Positions 52,546-60,285 of a DNA stretch of 64,000 nucleotides are shown here, piece by piece. Source of the DNA: Conexibacter arvalis. Its GTDB lineage: Bacteria > Actinomycetota > Thermoleophilia > Solirubrobacterales > Solirubrobacteraceae. Position 1 is the first letter of the stretch. Every line of letters begins with the position of its first letter. The position numbers were made by a program, and so were the translations under genes. The DNA is taken from positions 124,001 to 188,000 of the forward strand of contig NZ_JACHNU010000007.1 in the NCBI RefSeq assembly GCF_014199525.1. The letters are read 5' to 3'. A model generated the notes under the pieces. It was not told the origin of the DNA, searched no databases, and worked only from the letters and a program-made list of their open reading frames with translations.

Positions 52546-52899
52546 ATGAACCAGACCGTCCGCAACGTCGTCATCATCCTCGCGCTCGCCGCGGCGGTGG
52601 CGGTGGTCCCGGGCGGCAGCAACGCGAGCGACGCGATCCTGCAGACGCTCGTCGTGGTGATGCTCGGCGCGCTCGCCTATCTGGCGGTCCGCCTCTACCG
52701 CGAGCGGAAGAGCGACCTCTACGGCCTCGGCGACCGCAACCGCGCGATCCTCTACGGCTCTGCCGGAATGGGCACGATCGCGCTCGTCGGCACCGATCGG
52801 ATGTGGGACACCGGGGCCGGTTCGATCGCGTGGCTGGCGCTGATCGCACTCGCCTGCTTCGGGGTCTATCACGTCTACCGCAGAGCTCGCGAGTACTGA
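52546..52899 (+). CDS. Small membrane protein of unknown function
   Basis: 117 residues; RBS-like GGTGAG 4 nt before ATG 52546, 8 bp after the regulator stop, so probably cotranscribed. Four hydrophobic helices: VVIILALAAAVAVVPGG, TLVVVMLGALAYLAVRLY, ILYGSAGMGTIALVG, IAWLALIALACFGVYHVY. Short charged loops (RERKSDLYGLGDRNR). No family recognised; resembles small DUF proteins common in Thermoleophilia. Confidence 0.8.
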   Translation: MNQTVRNVVIILALAAAVAVVPGGSNASDAILQTLVVVMLGALAYLAVRLYRERKSDLYGLGDRNRAILYGSAGMGTIALVGTDRMWDTGAGSIAWLALIALACFGVYHVYRRAREY

Positions 52900-53939: not shown

Positions 53940-54278
53940 ATGTCCGCTCTCAGCTCCGACGACGGTCAGGCGACCGTCGAGCTCATCGCCCTCCTCCCGC
54001 TCCTCTGCCTGCTCGCCGCCGCGCTGTGGCAGATCACGCTCGCCGGCGGGGCCGTCTGGTTCGCGAACGGCGCCGCACGGGCGGCCGCGCGGGCCGAGGC
54101 CGTCGGCGGCGACGCGAGCGCCGCCGCCCGCGGCGCGCTGCCGGCGCGCTTCGAGCGCGGCCTGCGCGTTCGCGCGCGCGACGGCGGCGTCGCTCTCGAC
54201 GTCGCGGTCCCGGCGCTGCTGGGCGGCGGCACGCTCACGACGGTGACCGCCCGCGCCCGCTTCGAGGCGCAGCGATGA
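53940..54278 (+). CDS. TadE-like pilus assembly/pseudopilin protein
   Basis: 112 residues from ATG 53940 (GTG 53931 possible, with GGAG upstream). The segment SSDDGQATVELIALLPLLCLLAAALWQ is the TadE signature: Gly-Gln, then Glu at +5 after cleavage, and a 20-residue hydrophobic helix. The short extracellular C-terminus is beta-rich (LRVRARDGGVALDVAVP). First gene of the Tad-like cluster; its stop overlaps the next start (ATGA). Confidence 0.85.
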   Translation: MSALSSDDGQATVELIALLPLLCLLAAALWQITLAGGAVWFANGAARAAARAEAVGGDASAAARGALPARFERGLRVRARDGGVALDVAVPALLGGGTLTTVTARARFEAQR

Positions 54279-54709
54279 CCGCGCGCACACGCGCGAGCGC
54301 CGCCGCCCAGGATTCGCGCTGGCGTGCAGCGCGGGTCGGCACGGTCGCCGCGCCGACACGGCGGTGGGCGGGCCGCCTCCGCGGCGACGCCGGCCAGTCG
54401 GTCGTCGAGCTCGTCGCGCTGCTGCCGCTGTATGCCGCCGTCGCGATCGGCATCCTGCAGGCGCTCGCCGCCGGCGCGGCGGGGGAGCTCGCCGGCCACG
54501 CGGCGCAGTCGGCCGCGGTCGCGCTCGCACAGGGGAGAGACGGGGCCGCGGCGGCGCGCGGCGCGCTGCCCGGCTGGGCGCGCGACCGAATCGAGGTGCG
54601 GGTGGCGAGAACGCGGGTGACGGTCGTCGTGACCCCGCCGTCGCTGCTCCCCGGCCTCGGCAAGCGGCTGCGCACGACGGCGAGCGCAGACGCGGGACCG
54701 GCGACATGA
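54275..54709 (+). CDS. TadE/TadF-like pseudopilin protein
   Basis: 144 residues. A basic N-terminal extension of about 38 aa, then RGDAGQSVVELVALLPLYAAVAIGILQALAAG, the TadE/F helix, then a short basic extracellular part. Paralogue of the preceding gene. Translationally coupled both ways (ATGA at start, GACATGAG overlap at end), so the three proteins are made together and may form a complex. Confidence 0.85.
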   Translation: MTARTRASAAAQDSRWRAARVGTVAAPTRRWAGRLRGDAGQSVVELVALLPLYAAVAIGILQALAAGAAGELAGHAAQSAAVALAQGRDGAAAARGALPGWARDRIEVRVARTRVTVVVTPPSLLPGLGKRLRTTASADAGPAT

Positions 54710-55629
54710 GCGTCTCGCTGCCGAGCTCAGGCCGGCTCCTCGCCGGCGCGTCGCTGACGCTGCCGGAGGAGCCGGCCGCGACGGTCGCGACGGTCTTCGC
54801 ACCGACGGTCGCGATCCTCTGCGAGCCGACGCGCGATCGCGCGCTCGCCTCGGCCGTCGCGCTCGCACTCGCCGACGCCTGCGGGAGCCCGTGCGCGCTC
54901 GCGGCGGCGGCGGGACGCGGGACGGTCGCGGCGCTGCCGCTGACGCCGGCGGCGCGTCGCGGCGCCGCGCTGCTGCGCCGGCGCGGCTACGACGCCGCGG
55001 GCGTGGGCCGGCTGGCGTGGGTCGCGGATCTGCGCGTGTCACGACGCGCGGGGTCGGCGGGCGCGGGGCCCGACGACTGTGTCGACCCATGTGCGTCGGC
55101 GCGAGCGGTCGGGTCGGCGGGCGCGGGGCCCGACGACCCGCGTACGTCGGCGCGAACAGCGCGGTCGTCGAGCGCGGAGCGCGCCGGCTCGGCAGAGCTG
55201 CGCGCGTCCCTGCGGGCGCGGGCCGGGGGATCGGCGGGCGCCGAGTCCGCCGACCGCCCCGCGGCCGATCCGGTCGACCCGCTCGGCGACGATCCGGTCG
55301 GCGCGGTCGCGGCGATCTCGCTGGAGCTGGCAGGGGCGGCGCGGGCGCTGTCGGTGCCGGCCGCGCTCGCGATCCCGCTGGCTCGCTCGTCGGCGCTCGA
55401 CCGCGTGCTCGGCTGGCATGACGCGATCGTCGTGGTGGAGGACGGACGGTCGACGACGCCGGAGCTGAGCGAGCTCGTGCGCGAGAGCCTCGCCGCGCTC
55501 GACCGGCCGGTCGCCCCGATGGCGCCGCCGTCGCGCGCCCAGGCGCGCGCGGCCGCCGCCGGCATTCGCGCGCCGTCCGCGGCGGCACGGGCGATCGCGG
55601 AGCTGGAGCTGGCGCGCGCTCGGTCATGA
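54706..55629 (+). CDS. Tad-cluster protein of unknown function with duplicated linker
   Basis: 307 residues. Hydrophobic, Ala-rich N-terminal half with alternating beta/alpha pattern (TVAILCEPTRDRALASAVALALADACGS) and a C-terminal half (VGAVAAISLELAGAARALSVPAALAIPLARS, HDAIVVVEDGR) that resemble parts of a Rossmann-like ATPase fold without a P-loop. The centre (about 117-195) is a low-complexity linker carrying a 60-bp duplicate. The last ~20 codons lie in a 70-bp tandem duplication. No family recognised; context points to pilus assembly or its regulation. Confidence 0.7.
   Translation: MSVSLPSSGRLLAGASLTLPEEPAATVATVFAPTVAILCEPTRDRALASAVALALADACGSPCALAAAAGRGTVAALPLTPAARRGAALLRRRGYDAAGVGRLAWVADLRVSRRAGSAGAGPDDCVDPCASARAVGSAGAGPDDPRTSARTARSSSAERAGSAELRASLRARAGGSAGAESADRPAADPVDPLGDDPVGAVAAISLELAGAARALSVPAALAIPLARSSALDRVLGWHDAIVVVEDGRSTTPELSELVRESLAALDRPVAPMAPPSRAQARAAAAGIRAPSAAARAIAELELARARS
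55051..55137 (+). repeat. 60-bp period duplication in the linker
   Basis: A 27-bp stretch beginning gggtcggcgggcgcgg is identical at 55051-55077 and 55111-55137, in frame, encoding GSAGAGPDD twice. Confidence 0.8.
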
Positions 55630-55700
55630 CGGCATCCGCGCGCCGTCCGCGGCGGCACGGGCGATCGCGGAGCTGGAGCTGGCGCGCGCTCGGCCATGAC
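55561..55700 (+). repeat. 70-bp tandem duplication at the 3' end of the Tad-cluster gene
   Basis: Copy 1 (55561-55630) and copy 2 (55631-55700) match at 68 of 70 bases. Copy 1 ends the 307-aa gene with TCATGA. Copy 2 lies outside it and carries the same ...CATGAC end. Differences are at unit positions 6 (T/C) and 64 (T/C). Confidence 0.9.
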
Positions 55701-55748
55701 GTCCGAAACGTTCAAGTCACGCCGGACGCGATCCGCGAAGATCGGACG

Positions 55749-56642
55749 ATGCCCTCGCCGATCGACCTCACCGCCGCCGCCGACTTCGTCTGGCGCAGCG
55801 CCCGGCTGCTCGACCGCCACCGCTTCGCCGCCCTGACGGGATCCGCCGGCGACGAGCCGGTCATTGCGGCGCTGCGTGCGTACCAGAACGCCGACGGCGG
55901 CTTCGGAAACGCGCTCGAGCCCGACCTGCGCGCGCCGGTCAGCCAGCCGCAGCCGGTCGAGCTGGCCTTCCACGTGCTCGACGAGCTCGGCGCCCTCGAC
56001 GACCCGATCGCCGCGCGCGCCTGTGACTGGCTGCTTTCGGTCTCGACGGCGGAGGGCGGCGTCCCGTTCATGCTCCCGTCGGCGCGGGCGTGGCCGCGCG
56101 CGCCGTGGTGGGAGACGAGCGACGAGCCGGCGGCGTCGGTCAACCCGACCGCCGCGCTCGCCGGGCTGCTGCACCGCAACGGCGTCGAGCATCCGTGGCT
56201 GGAGCCGGCGACGGCGTTCGTCTGGAAGGCGCTCGACGGGCCGCTCGACGAGCTCGGCGGCTACGACGCGATCGCGCTGTTCGTCTTCCTCGACGGCGTC
56301 CCTGACCGCGCGCGGGCCGAGACCGCCGCCGCGCGCCTGAGCGAGCTGGTCGCGGACCGCGAGATCGTCGCGCTCGACCCGGCTGCCGAGGGCCACGTCT
56401 TCTCGCCGCTCCAGCTCGCGCCGAGACCGGACGCGCTCGGGCGGCGCGGCTTCTCGGACGAGACGATCGACCGCCACCTCGACGCGCTCGCGGCGAGCCA
56501 GCAGGAGGACGGCGGCTGGCCGGTCTCGTGGCCGACCCAGAGCGTCGCCGCCGAGCAGGAGTGGCGCGGCTGGCTGACCGTCTCCGTGCTGCGCACGCTC
56601 GCCGCCTACGGCCGCGTCTCGCTCGCCGCCGCCCGCGGCTGA
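55749..56642 (+). CDS. Prenyltransferase/squalene-cyclase-fold protein
   Basis: 297 residues from ATG 55749. Repeats of the alpha/alpha toroid kind are seen as AYQNADGGFGNALEPD, CDWLLSVSTAEGGVPF and ASQQEDGGWPVSWP (the QxxDGGW/F motifs). It lacks the DxDD acid motif of cyclases and the zinc ligands of prenyltransferases, so it is probably not an ordinary member of either. Located between two Tad-like genes; a scaffold or glycan-binding role is conceivable. Confidence 0.8.
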   Translation: MPSPIDLTAAADFVWRSARLLDRHRFAALTGSAGDEPVIAALRAYQNADGGFGNALEPDLRAPVSQPQPVELAFHVLDELGALDDPIAARACDWLLSVSTAEGGVPFMLPSARAWPRAPWWETSDEPAASVNPTAALAGLLHRNGVEHPWLEPATAFVWKALDGPLDELGGYDAIALFVFLDGVPDRARAETAAARLSELVADREIVALDPAAEGHVFSPLQLAPRPDALGRRGFSDETIDRHLDALAASQQEDGGWPVSWPTQSVAAEQEWRGWLTVSVLRTLAAYGRVSLAAARG

Positions 56643-56768
56643 CCCGCGCGGCGACCACACCCTGCCGAGCGGCCGGGCATCTCCGACGCTCGGTCTGAGC
56701 AGTCGCTGCGCAGAGACGCAGCGAATGCGTCTGGTTTCGGCACAGCGGCCGCTGGGAGGGTGGAGCGC
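56643..56768. other. Short intergenic region before the TadG-like fusion gene
   Basis: 126 bp. Contains a GGGAGGG ribosome site at 56754-56760 and short inverted stretches (for example CGCTGCGCAGAGACGCAGCG at about 56708-56727) that could be a small hairpin. No other feature supported. Confidence 0.4.
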
Positions 56769-58202
56769 ATGTCCGCCCGCCTCCTCGACCGCTCCGCGCC
56801 GGCACCGCCCGGCGTGCGGCGGCGCGGGCGCGCGGTGCGGCTGGGGGTGAACCGCGGGTGCGCGTTGCAGATCGCCGACGAGCGCGGGCGCGCGGTGCGG
56901 CTGGGGGACGAACGCGGGCAGGCGCTGCTGCTGCTCGTGGGCGCGATCGCGGCAGTGCTGATCGGGACGGTCGTGATCGGTGCGATCGCGCGCGGCATCG
57001 GCGAGCGCGGCAGCAACCAGCGCGCCGCCGACCTCGGCGCGCTCGGCGGCGCGCGGGCGATGCGGGCCGACTACGCGCGGCTGTTCGCGCCGCCGCTGCT
57101 CGGCGGCGCACCGAATCCGGCCCACCTCGATCGCGCCACCTACCTCGCGCGGGCGCGGGCACGGGCCGAGAAGACGGCCCGCATGAACGGCGCCGAGGCG
57201 ATCGAGATCGCCTTCCCCGACGGCGGCTCGTTCGCGCCGACGCGCATCCGGGTCACGGTTCGCGACCCGGCCGTCGTCGAGGTCGGTCGGCAGCGGCGGA
57301 CGGCCGCGGTCGACGCCACCGCGGAGGCCGAGCTGGCCGCCACCGCCGCGGCCGACGCGCTCGAGGCGGGACCGGGCGACTACGCCGGGCCGCTCGCTCA
57401 TCGGCAAGGAAAGCCGATGCGACCCGACGTCGCCGCGGCCTTCGACCGGATGGCGGCAGCGGCGGCGCGTGACGGGATCCAGCTGATCGTCAACAGCGGC
57501 TGGCGCAGCACCGCGGAGCAGGCGCGGCTGTTCGCCGCCAACCCCGACCCGAGATGGGTCGCGCCGCCCGGCAAGTCGCTCCACCGCCTCGGGACCGAGC
57601 TCGACCTCGGCCCGCCGAGCGCCTACGCCTGGCTGGCGGCGAACGCTCCCACTTTCCATTTCGTGAAGCGCTACAGCTGGGAACCTTGGCATTTCGGCTT
57701 CACGCTCAACGCCGGCACGACCTCGGTCGGCTACGGCGGCGGGGGAGACGGGCGCTCGACGATGCCGTCGTTCGTGCCGGCCGCCTATGCGCCGGCGATC
57801 GCGAGAGCGGCGCAGCGGTGGAACGTCTCGGCGGCGCTGCTGGCGGCGCAGCTGTACGCCGAGAGCGGCTTCAACCCCTTCGCCGTCTCCTCGGCCGGCG
57901 CGCAGGGGATCGCGCAGTTCATGCCGGGGACGGCGCGGCAGTACGGCTTGAGCGACCCGTTCGACGCGCCGGCCGCGATCGACGCGCAGGGGCGGATGAT
58001 GCGCGACCTGCTGCGGCAGTTCGGCACCGTCCCGCTCGCGCTCGCCGCGTACAACGCGGGACCCGGCGCGGTCTCCGGCTGCGGCTGCATCCCGCCGTAC
58101 CCGGAGACGCAGGCGTACGTGGCGCGGATCCTCGGCCTGCTGCGGGGCGCGGGCGACACGGCCGGCCTCGCCGCCGGCCTGGAGGTGCGGCTCGTGAGAT
58201 GA
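56769..58202 (+). CDS. TadG-like/VanY/SLT fusion: pilus-linked cell-wall hydrolase
   Basis: 477 residues from ATG 56769 (GGGAGGG 8 nt upstream). Residues about 48-95 are TadG-like: RGQALLLLVGAIAAVLIG then RGSNQRAADLGALGGARA. Residues about 205-320 form an M15 VanY-type carboxypeptidase: H272 and D279 (SLHRLGTELD), E305 and H308 (EPWHFGF). Residues about 330-460 form an SLT transglycosylase with Glu at 365 (ESGFNPFAV), QFMPGTARQYG and LAYNAGPG. This order is unusual for a Tad protein and would cut both peptide and glycan bonds near the pilus. Confidence 0.88.
   Translation: MSARLLDRSAPAPPGVRRRGRAVRLGVNRGCALQIADERGRAVRLGDERGQALLLLVGAIAAVLIGTVVIGAIARGIGERGSNQRAADLGALGGARAMRADYARLFAPPLLGGAPNPAHLDRATYLARARARAEKTARMNGAEAIEIAFPDGGSFAPTRIRVTVRDPAVVEVGRQRRTAAVDATAEAELAATAAADALEAGPGDYAGPLAHRQGKPMRPDVAAAFDRMAAAAARDGIQLIVNSGWRSTAEQARLFAANPDPRWVAPPGKSLHRLGTELDLGPPSAYAWLAANAPTFHFVKRYSWEPWHFGFTLNAGTTSVGYGGGGDGRSTMPSFVPAAYAPAIARAAQRWNVSAALLAAQLYAESGFNPFAVSSAGAQGIAQFMPGTARQYGLSDPFDAPAAIDAQGRMMRDLLRQFGTVPLALAAYNAGPGAVSGCGCIPPYPETQAYVARILGLLRGAGDTAGLAAGLEVRLVR
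56822..56907 (+). repeat. 60-bp duplicate in the fusion gene's N-terminus
   Basis: The 26-bp stretch gcgcgggcgcgcggtgcggc... is repeated at 56822-56847 and 56882-56907, giving two RGRAVRLG units before the TadG-like helix. Confidence 0.75.
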
Positions 58203-58341: not shown

Positions 58342-60285
58342 ATGGCCGACGGCAGCAGCAACGGAAACGGATGGGACGACCCGCAGGCGCGGGAGAGCGC
58401 CGCGCAGGCGGCGAGAGCGCGTGACGAGCGGCTGAGAGAGCAGCGGCGGGCGCTGCCCGACCAGCCCGGCGTCTACCTCTTCCGCAACGCGAAGGGGACC
58501 GTCATCTACGTCGGCAAGGCGAAGTCGATCAAGAAGCGGGTCGCGTCGCACTTCTCCAACCCGAGCACGCAGGCCGGGCGCGACCTGCTGCCGATGATCG
58601 ACCGGATCGAGTCGCTGGTCGTCGCGACCGAGGCGGAGGCGCTGCTGGCGGAGCAGAACTTCATCAAGCAGTACAAGCCGCGCTTCAACATCCGCCTGCG
58701 CGACGACAAGTCGTATCCGTACATCGGCATCTCGCTCGACGAGGACTACCCGCGCGTCTACTTCACGCGGGAGCGCCATCGCCGCGAGCGCGCCTACTTC
58801 GGGCCGTACTCGAACGCGAAGCGGGTGCGGGAGACACTCGACCTGCTCGGCAAGATCTTCATGTTCCGGACCTGCGACGGGCCGACCCCCGGCCGGCGCA
58901 GCGGCTCGCCCTGCCTCGACTACTACATCAAGCGCTGCGAGGCGCCCTGCGTCGGCTACGTCACCAGAGACGAGTACCGCGTCGCGATCGACGGCGTGAT
59001 CGACTTCCTCTCCGGCCGCTACAACGCGATCGAGTCGGCGATCGAGGCGAACATGCGCGAGGCCGCCGCCGAGCAGCGGTTCGAGGACGCCGCGCGCGAG
59101 CGCAACCGCCTCAGAGCGATCCGCTCGCTGCTGGAGCGCCAGCGGGTCACCAACGCCTCGGTCGGGACGCTCGACGCGATCGCGATCGCCGTCGAGGGCC
59201 ACGACGCCAACGCGCAGGTCTTCCAGGTCCGCGACGGCGTCCTCTCCGACCGCCAGGGCTTCTATCTCGAGAACGAGGCGGGCGACGACGTCGCCGCCGT
59301 CGCCGAGGCGTTCGTCCTCCAGTACTACGGCAGCGCGCTGATGATCCCGCCGCTGCTCGTCGTGCAGAGAGAGGTCGGCGAGTCCGCGTCCGCGATCGCC
59401 GCGGCGCTCGCCGAGCGGCGCGGCGGGCCGGTCGAGCTGCGCGCCGCCGAGCGCGGCGACAAGAAGCGGATACTCGAGCTGGCCGAGCGCAACGCGAAGC
59501 TCGCGCTCGACCAGGAGAGACTGCGCTCCGAGCGCAGACGCCAGCAGCGGGTCGACGCGCTCGAAGGGCTCCAGAAGGTGCTCGGCCTCGACACGATCCC
59601 GCTGCGGATCGAGTGCTTCGACATCTCGCACGTCGGCGGCACCCACACGGTCGCGTCGATGGTCGTCTTCGAGGCCGGCGCCGCCAAGAAGTCCGACTAC
59701 CGCCGCTTCACCCTGCGCGAAGGGACCGAGGGCGTGCCGGACGACTTCGCCTCGATGGAGGAGGTGCTGACGCGCCGCCTCGGCCAGTACGAGCGCCAGC
59801 ACGACCGCTCTCCGCACGACGAGGGCTACGACTCCAGCTTCGCGTCGCTGCCGAACGTCGTCGTGATCGACGGCGGCAAGGGGCAGCTGTCGGCCGGCAT
59901 GCGCGCGCTCGAGGGCTTCCGCCGCCGCGGCGTCGCGATCGTCTCGCTGGCGAAGAGAATCGAGGAGGTCTTCCTGCCCGGCAGATCGACCCCGATCGTG
60001 CTGCCGCACGACACGCCCGAGCTGCAGCTGCTCCAGCGGATCCGCGACGAGGCCCACCGCTTCGCGATCACACATCACCGCGTCCGCCGCGACAGAGCGA
60101 TGACGGTCTCGGTGCTCGACACGCTGCCCGGCGTCGGGCCGGCGCGCAAGCGGGCGCTGCTGAAGCACTTCGGCTCGCCGGAGGCCTTCCTCGCCGCCAC
60201 GCGAGAGGAGCTCGAGGCGGTCCCCGGGCTGCCCGGCAAGGTCGCCCGCGACCTCTACCTGCAGATCAACAAGACCGGCCACTGA
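58342..60285 (+). CDS. uvrC: Excinuclease ABC subunit UvrC
   Basis: 647 residues, RBS GGGAGG, TATCCT box 11 nt upstream. The GIY-YIG nuclease domain (about 38-115: PGVYLFRNAKGTVIYVGKA), the UVR motif REAAAEQRFEDAARERNRLRAI, a C-terminal RNase H-like nuclease with ECFDISHVGGTHTVASMVVFE and VIDGGKGQLSA, and a terminal helix-hairpin-helix LPGVGPARKRALLKHFGS are all in order. It cuts both sides of bulky DNA damage in nucleotide excision repair. Confidence 0.97.
   Translation: MADGSSNGNGWDDPQARESAAQAARARDERLREQRRALPDQPGVYLFRNAKGTVIYVGKAKSIKKRVASHFSNPSTQAGRDLLPMIDRIESLVVATEAEALLAEQNFIKQYKPRFNIRLRDDKSYPYIGISLDEDYPRVYFTRERHRRERAYFGPYSNAKRVRETLDLLGKIFMFRTCDGPTPGRRSGSPCLDYYIKRCEAPCVGYVTRDEYRVAIDGVIDFLSGRYNAIESAIEANMREAAAEQRFEDAARERNRLRAIRSLLERQRVTNASVGTLDAIAIAVEGHDANAQVFQVRDGVLSDRQGFYLENEAGDDVAAVAEAFVLQYYGSALMIPPLLVVQREVGESASAIAAALAERRGGPVELRAAERGDKKRILELAERNAKLALDQERLRSERRRQQRVDALEGLQKVLGLDTIPLRIECFDISHVGGTHTVASMVVFEAGAAKKSDYRRFTLREGTEGVPDDFASMEEVLTRRLGQYERQHDRSPHDEGYDSSFASLPNVVVIDGGKGQLSAGMRALEGFRRRGVAIVSLAKRIEEVFLPGRSTPIVLPHDTPELQLLQRIRDEAHRFAITHHRVRRDRAMTVSVLDTLPGVGPARKRALLKHFGSPEAFLAATREELEAVPGLPGKVARDLYLQINKTGH

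Follow-up and report, generated by a model that had tools for sequence, protein, structure and literature searches.

TadG forms the backbone of the TadEFG tip of Tad (type IVc) pili and carries a C-terminal module (PMC12075869). According to a structural study from 2025 (PMC12307814), neither a peptidoglycan hydrolase nor a lytic transglycosylase has so far been reported for the Tad pilus. Here we analyse a gene block of Conexibacter arvalis that is predicted to encode a TadG-like protein joined to a VanY-type peptidase and an SLT lytic transglycosylase (hereafter, the fusion). The block lies in a stretch of 64,000 nucleotides (nt), the window, which is G000:C7:124001-188000 of the 5.2-Mb, 99% complete genome labelled G000. 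A first-pass annotation made from the sequence had named the fusion, two pseudopilin genes, a third gene and a toroid-fold gene there, and all of them are found on the + strand of 53940-58202.

Micrococcus luteus offers a case of tad-dependent transformation in an actinobacterium (PMC4322843). Its system shares with ours actinobacterial Tad genes together with ComEA/ComEC, distal open reading frames (ORFs) that are weakly TadG-like (PF13400) and an unlinked prepilin peptidase, but differs in having a Flp pilin, the main component of its extracellular complexes, and in being without TadZ (PMC4322843). The word ‘peptidoglycan’ is absent from the text of the paper. In Streptococcus sanguinis, the wall hydrolase LytF has been proposed to help the competence pilus out through a monoderm wall (PMC13192262); LytF is a separate secreted CHAP enzyme serving a ComG-type pilus, whereas the enzymes here sit on a pilin-type subunit. 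Tad-dependent predation by the Kil system (PMC8460266) and ‘generic’ actinobacterial Tad-like systems (PMC6668835) are described in two further papers.

Our locus and the unlinked genes described below share with the Tad (type IVc) pilus TadA, TadB, TadC, CpaB/RcpC, pseudopilins with a G|xxxxE signature, a TadG-like protein with a C-terminal module and probably a TadZ-like protein; they differ in that no Flp pilin was found, the genes are divided between two loci and the TadG module consists of two wall hydrolases. Each part belongs to a known family, and the machine as a whole is of Tad type. A glycan cutter and a peptide cutter are also combined in one protein in the bifunctional CwlT / VirB1-like hydrolases of conjugation, which serve a trans-envelope machine; these enzymes belong to type IV secretion and are not known to carry a TadG-like domain. 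Viollier and Shapiro reportedly showed in 2003 that PleA of Caulobacter, a lytic transglycosylase homologue, is required for Tad-type pili and the flagellum, making PleA a partial exception to the 2025 statement; unlike the fusion, PleA is presumably a separate protein. The first-pass annotation knew of no described system with this domain order, and likewise our searches of open-access PMC papers listed none that describes a TadG–hydrolase fusion. Nothing relevant on Tad in Solirubrobacter or Thermoleophilia appeared among the 15 of 165 literature matches listed, and PMC6299819 contains no mention of Thermoleophilia, Solirubrobacter or Conexibacter.

Domains and active sites of the fusion protein

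The fusion had been read as a single protein with a TadG-like segment, a VanY domain (H272, D279, E305, H308) and an SLT domain (E365), and our analysis agrees. Both enzyme domains match Pfam far above the cut-offs (VanY, 58.2 bits against 25, amino acids (aa) 217-311; SLT, 69.5 bits against 21.3, aa 344-435). H272, D279, E305 and H308, which we take to be the Zn ligands and catalytic Glu of the VanY/M15 pattern, are invariant together with E365 in a 26-row alignment (A1), which was assembled by means of an SLT motif not containing any of these five residues; the invariance of the motif itself is no evidence. Less biased counts are given by the non-motif TadE profile matches described below and by the 40 loci from the whole-protein search, in which the four VanY residues are kept in 40/40 and E365 in 39/40 (one gap). 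All five residues also recur in 80/80 named loci, which were fetched with peptide patterns containing H272 and D279, so just E305, H308 and E365 are independent in that count.

Towards the N-terminus, the window copy matches TIGR03816 (Rv3654c TadE-like) at 20.3 bits (E 4.7e-4, aa 48-101), under the curated cut-off, and has no PF13400 match in the Pfam scan. Across the family, TIGR03816 is found in 24 of the 26 rows and PF13400 (TadE/G-like) in 18 at E<=0.1. In the same alignment a nearly invariant G50-Q51 stands ahead of the membrane helix, and a ‘QRAADLAAL’-type stretch comes after it. Alignment of the fusion N-terminus with class-II TadG by hhalign extends over 58 columns (E 5.9e-4, probability 29%).

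An AlphaFold2 model built from the 26-row alignment, with a mean predicted local distance difference test score (pLDDT) of 76, is organized as a long helix (aa 41-106), a compact alpha/beta domain reaching to about aa 192 and two enzyme domains. The ten-residue mean pLDDT is 53 at aa 41-50 and 82-98 across aa 51-190. The modelled VanY domain superimposes on VanYB (5hnm) with a Z-score of 10.6 (root-mean-square deviation (rmsd) 2.8, 105 residues aligned), and the SLT domain on Slt (5ohu) with 10.7 (rmsd 2.3, 133 aligned). Structure prediction, which the first-pass annotation had proposed as a check, therefore recovers a pilin-like domain beyond the helix together with both hydrolase folds. A Foldseek search with the fusion gave hydrolase folds alone among the matches listed, with rows covering aa 101-469. 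The first-pass reading of a TadG-like N-terminus followed by a peptide- and a glycan-cutting domain, encoded next to two genes of TadE type, is supported.

Among named records, those most similar to the fusion come from Conexibacter, at up to 82% identity. Its length of 477 aa is counted from an ATG, and the frame is open from GTG 56760. The first ~45 codons (56823-56910) lie outside the conserved part and contain an apparent internal near-repeat, in which RGRAVRLG occurs twice; the true start may therefore lie nearer the membrane helix.

The gene block, its distribution and a domain exchange

The order on the + strand is TadE1, TadE2, gene 3, a toroid-type gene, the fusion, uvrC and a rapZ-like gene (Table 1), and the TadE1/TadE2 and TadE2/gene 3 junctions are stop/start overlaps of 4 nt. 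Both overlapping TadE/F-type genes of the first-pass annotation are present. TadE1 of the window scores 16.5 bits with PF07811 (cut-off 22.9) and 18.4 bits with NF041390 TadE_Rv3655c, also under cut-off; the window copy of TadE2 has no match of its own in Pfam or NCBIfam, and its family matches PF07811 in 19 of 29 rows at E<=0.1. A G-x4-E near the N-terminus is present in 66/69 and 118/122 TadE profile matches upstream of the fusion, which were not selected by motif. Most rows of the 29-row alignment (A5) were picked by the G|xxxxE motif, and its invariance there is no independent count.

Table 1 Features of the gene block, with the exchanged form of the fusion from another order.
Feature	Position	Strand	Basis or remark
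TadE1, TadE-type pseudopilin, 112 aa	53940..54278	+	G|xxxxE processing signature (G9, E14); weak profile matches
TadE2, second TadE/TadF-type pseudopilin, 144 aa	54275..54709	+	4-nt overlap with TadE1; aligns with TadE1 homologues
Gene 3, probably degenerate TadZ/CpaE-like (ParA/MinD fold), 307 aa, low-complexity insert	54706..55629	+	Profile and fold
70-bp tandem duplication of gene 3 end, copies 97% identical	55560..55699	+	
Alpha/alpha-toroid (squalene-cyclase-like) gene, inserted	55749..56642	+	Weak PF13243, 11.8 bits
Fusion, TadG-like + VanY + SLT, 477 aa	56769..58202	+	Pfam, NCBIfam, alignment, model
Fusion aa 41-192, TadG-like membrane helix and pilin-like alpha/beta domain	56889..57344	+	Model, TIGR03816, hhalign
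Fusion aa 209-313, VanY/M15 zinc peptidase, H272 D279 E305 H308	57393..57707	+	Pfam, structure match, residues
Fusion aa 333-469, SLT lytic transglycosylase, E365	57765..58175	+	Pfam, structure match, residue
uvrC, frequent 3′ neighbour, outside the machine	58342..60285	+	Source of species tree
TadG-like + NlpC/P60 + SLT fusion (VanY replaced)	L279 (G382), 724-1956	reverse	

Synteny across relatives, another comparison that had been proposed, shows the TadE–TadE–fusion linkage to be conserved. Two TadE genes lie within 3.5 kb upstream of the fusion in 33 of the 35 judged loci of the 40-locus set (5 with less than 2.5 kb of upstream sequence were set aside), and the remaining two have one or two TadE genes further away. 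In the 80-locus named set, from which 25 loci were set aside before judging TadE neighbours, two TadE genes are nearby in 52 of 55; the two sets share genomes. A gene-3-like ORF is present in 27 of these 35 loci and in 43 of these 55.

Gene 3, which had been called unknown, is present and probably encodes a degenerate TadZ/CpaE-like protein of the ParA/MinD fold, as judged from profile and modelled fold. The window copy matches no Pfam or NCBIfam family, five relatives gave one weak chance match and nothing else in the family scans, and a sequence search of the PDB returned weak matches to unrelated names and nothing more. A profile of the window type (9 rows) matches a profile of the L219 type with a probability of 92.9% (E 3.7e-7), and the model of L219 (mean pLDDT 81.8) resembles ParF (Z 16.5, rmsd 2.9, 174 aligned) and MinD (Z 16.5, rmsd 3.1, 184 aligned). 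In other families, proteins at this position contain VVAVVGLAPRCGASTVARW... and PLILDV..., which look like atypical Walker A and B motifs; CpaE has an atypical P-loop, and no P-loop is readable in gene 3 of the window.

The toroid-fold gene noted ahead of the fusion is present, but it is not a member of the conserved cluster: a homologue occurs in just 1 of the 40 relative loci, there upstream of TadE1, and we therefore regard the gene as an insertion. The 70-bp duplication at the end of gene 3 lies exactly where this gene was inserted. Other loci also have long insertions separating the TadE genes from the fusion, seen as an apparent istA/istB-type transposon pair in L054 and as membrane glycosyltransferase-like genes in L063.

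A fusion or a piece of one (best match E<1e-60) is found in 51 of 61 genomes, comprising G000 and 60 relatives; contig ends or frame interrupt the match in some of them, and G060 retains the SLT part alone, at a contig end. In an even draw across the phylum, 98 of 396 genomes match the fusion at E<=1e-20. Among the matches listed, those spanning VanY and SLT are confined to the class of the window (families f1, f3 and f5 of the draw), and every one outside the class starts at model position 282 or later, corresponding to SLT alone. Family f5 belongs to another order of the class, and two TadE-type matches stand ahead of the fusion in 7/7 of its loci with upstream sequence. A mobile-element origin was considered and rejected: none of the 462 phage and 1,231 plasmid records that match the fusion covers at least 80% of it at one place.

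In one f5 genome, G382, the protein between the TadE genes and uvrC (order TadE, TadE, fusion, uvrC) matches Tad (PF13400) at 22.5 bits (cut-off 22.3), NlpC/P60 at 63.1 and SLT at 80.3. The peptide cutter thus appears to have been exchanged, with both chemistries predicted to be kept. This NlpC/P60+SLT version presumably resembles CwlT.

G023, G007, G020 and G031 lack the gene block, and in them uvrC directly adjoins a small membrane gene. A 117-aa membrane protein of unassigned family is encoded upstream of the block in the window (52546-52899), and its apparent homologue is the gene that adjoins uvrC in these four genomes. Metagenome bins titled ‘Bifidobacterium breve’ (L211, L214, L216, L232) carry a Solirubrobacterales-type locus, so these record names look wrong.

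Tad genes outside the window and co-occurrence with comEC

The remark that no tadA, tadB or tadC gene is in view is right for the window, and we located these genes on another contig of the same genome. TadA (G000:C8:146550-147776) scores 218.9 bits with T2SSE, the single T2SSE match in the genome, and after it come the platform genes for TadB and TadC, both of which match T2SSF over cut-off; a CpaB/RcpC gene lies near them (PF16976, 30.4 bits, cut-off 28.8). The Tad genes of G000 are therefore divided over two loci on different contigs, with no single compact tad locus. On the other side of tadABC are genes that read as mraZ and mraW, as named from the sequence; mraZ-mraW adjoin tadABC in 14/16 class-I loci compared, against 0/5 canonical-type loci. 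The genome has one Peptidase_A24 match, the prepilin peptidase, which is unlinked and lies in an apparent aro gene neighbourhood. ComEC is also present, with a ComEA-type gene (SLBB + HHH) directly upstream.

Searches of G000 with PF04964 and PF14029 gave 0 Flp pilin matches, although a divergent pilin could escape them. Flp was found in 4 of the 61 genomes (G009, G013, G030 and G050), over cut-off in one, and there it stands with a canonical-type tad cluster carrying its own tadA (L132-L135). Three canonical TadG proteins of the same order were scanned; they are large and have PF13400, with no hydrolase domain. G043 has a further tad-like cluster (L136, 6.3-12.1 kb), in which a TadE-type gene separates tadA from a TadZ-like gene.

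We compared the presence of the fusion, Tad (counted as tadA or tadC) and ComEC in hand-compiled trait tables for the 47 good genomes (completeness of 90% or more, contamination of 5% or less; 14 of the 61 left out). Fusion and Tad occur together in 37, the fusion without Tad in 2, Tad without the fusion in 1 and neither in 7; for fusion and ComEC, 38 genomes have both, 7 neither and one is discordant in each direction; and for Tad and ComEC, 38 have both, none Tad only, one ComEC only and 8 neither. With TadA alone as the measure of Tad, the counts against the fusion become 36 both, 3 fusion only, 1 Tad only and 7 neither. Fisher tests of the fusion/Tad/ComEC pairs give p values of 3e-8 to 4e-6. 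As a control, type IV pilus ATPases, a rough measure read from weaker secondary matches of the TadA query, are associated with neither the fusion (p 0.19) nor ComEC (p 0.67). Among all 61 genomes, fusion and Tad count 48 both, 3 fusion only, 3 Tad only and 7 neither, and fusion and ComEC 46 both, 5 fusion only, 2 ComEC only and 8 neither.

Several assignments underlie these counts. G002, G006 and G015 were candidate cases of a fusion without TadA; each of them has TadC, which in G006 and G015 lies at the start of a contig, and all were therefore counted as Tad-positive. The TadC search covered the genomes other than G017 and G030. In G027, G029, G041 and G047 TadA is 52-58% identical, yet class-I neighbours are present. 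G030 has a canonical-type TadA only and was counted as being without class-I Tad. A uvrC tree of 59 genomes, which does not include G021 and G032 and in which G009 and G025 are partial sequences, places the triple absence of fusion, Tad and ComEC at four positions: G023, G030, G017 and the group G007/G031/G012/G020.

A proposed wall-opening pseudopilus and its alternatives

The gene content, conservation, folds, intact active-site residues, synteny, single domain swap and co-occurrence with comEC lead us to infer that the locus encodes the pseudopilin and tip half of a split Tad-type (type IVc) filament machine with no recognizable Flp pilin, most likely for DNA uptake, whose TadG-like subunit would open the wall; we give this reading a probability of about 0.55. 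The motor, platform and alignment half (tadA-tadB-tadC with cpaB/rcpC) would be the one encoded beside mraZ-mraW. TadE1 and TadE2 would be processed at G|xxxxE by the single prepilin peptidase detected in the genome, and TadABC may polymerise them into a short pseudopilus, with the CpaB-like protein as guide. By analogy with the TadEFG tip complexes that have been proposed, the fusion would join TadE1/TadE2 in the membrane and at the tip or base. There, if both enzymes are active, SLT would cut glycan strands and VanY peptide stems, producing a local gap through which the filament could cross the thick wall, and DNA could then reach ComEA/ComEC. The interpretation in the first-pass annotation, that a filament clears a passage for itself across the wall, is partly supported by these results and appears to be the best mechanism; DNA uptake is favoured over adhesion or secretion by the comEC co-occurrence.

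A number of observations weigh against this reading. The TadG-type score of the fusion and the scores of TadE1 in the window fall below curated cut-offs, and no fusion row read has a Glu at +5 after G50, whereas most TadE neighbours have it. Comparison of gene 3 with TadZ of canonical Tad loci by hhalign is collinear with a probability of just 1.7%, so that the identity of gene 3 rests on fold. Parts of the class are without the fusion: in the 396-genome draw, families f6 and f7 have no match, and f8 and f9 have SLT alone. The Fisher tests ignore shared ancestry, and the four places of triple absence are those of the best tree, not all well supported. An independent-pairs test with 3 well-supported pairs is not significant: fusion and ComEC change the same way in 2 pairs and the opposite way in 1, the sister genomes G055/G057 being a pair that goes the wrong way, and fusion and Tad average 1.5 same and 1.0 opposite. 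The fusion occurs without detected Tad in G001, G033 and G057, which remain unexplained, Tad occurs without the fusion in G032, G055 and G058, and ComEC without the fusion in G032 and G055.

The small number of joint absences on the tree, and the lack of power of the pairs test, leave room for the same Tad-type machine and wall-opening role to serve adhesion, surface sensing or protein secretion, with comEC shared through losses in the same few lineages. Adhesion is what Tad systems are chiefly known for, and the Tad locus of G000 adjoins response-regulator and kinase genes, with HD-GYP- and EAL-type genes (named from reading the sequence) nearby. We consider such a function less likely, as the genome shows no adhesive Flp with the two families searched, the genomes with Flp hold it in separate canonical Tad loci, and ComEC tracks class-I Tad and not type IV pilus ATPases. 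The pairing of a peptidase with a transglycosylase would also suit an offensive use, in which the tip-borne hydrolase attacks the wall of neighbours, as in Kil predation or in fratricide releasing DNA; adaptable C-terminal modules on a TadG-like subunit are described for Kil tips (PMC12075869). Such enzymes would, however, meet the wall of their producer first, their modules are conserved across the order and not variable, save for the one VanY/NlpC swap found, no further conserved gene was seen in the block as a possible immunity partner, and a PADLOC scan gave no match; attack on neighbours is thus improbable.

Equally small is the chance that the fusion is a membrane-anchored housekeeping hydrolase for growth or division, its TadG-like N-terminus being a mere anchor. 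The missing Glu at +5, the adjacency of class-I tadABC to mraZ-mraW and the three genomes that keep the fusion without detected tadA or tadC are in line with that role, while the linkage to two TadE genes, the joint absence with tadABC, the pilin-like domain modelled at high confidence past the helix and the absence of the fusion from 8 of the 47 good genomes speak against it. An assembly join, or absence of the fusion from relatives, had been named as possible grounds for refutation; the fusion is widespread in relatives, and because the same architecture recurs in many of the 61 genomes and in the 80 named loci, which come from different records, we exclude an artefact of assembly or annotation, with nothing found in its favour.

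Stated more broadly, the preferred reading becomes tentative: a DNA-uptake Tad-type pseudopilus made of TadE-type subunits without Flp, whose TadG-like tip subunit would be a self-contained wall drill for glycan and peptide. Its peptidase module would be interchangeable (VanY or NlpC/P60), and the machine would be common across one actinobacterial order and occur in at least one further order of the class. How a Tad filament passes through peptidoglycan is an open question, and here evolution has fused a TadG-like subunit with hydrolases, across an order, with active sites intact and with a natural swap of the peptide cutter. The fusion makes the question of wall passage testable and points to a possible DNA-uptake filament in a poorly studied bacterial group.

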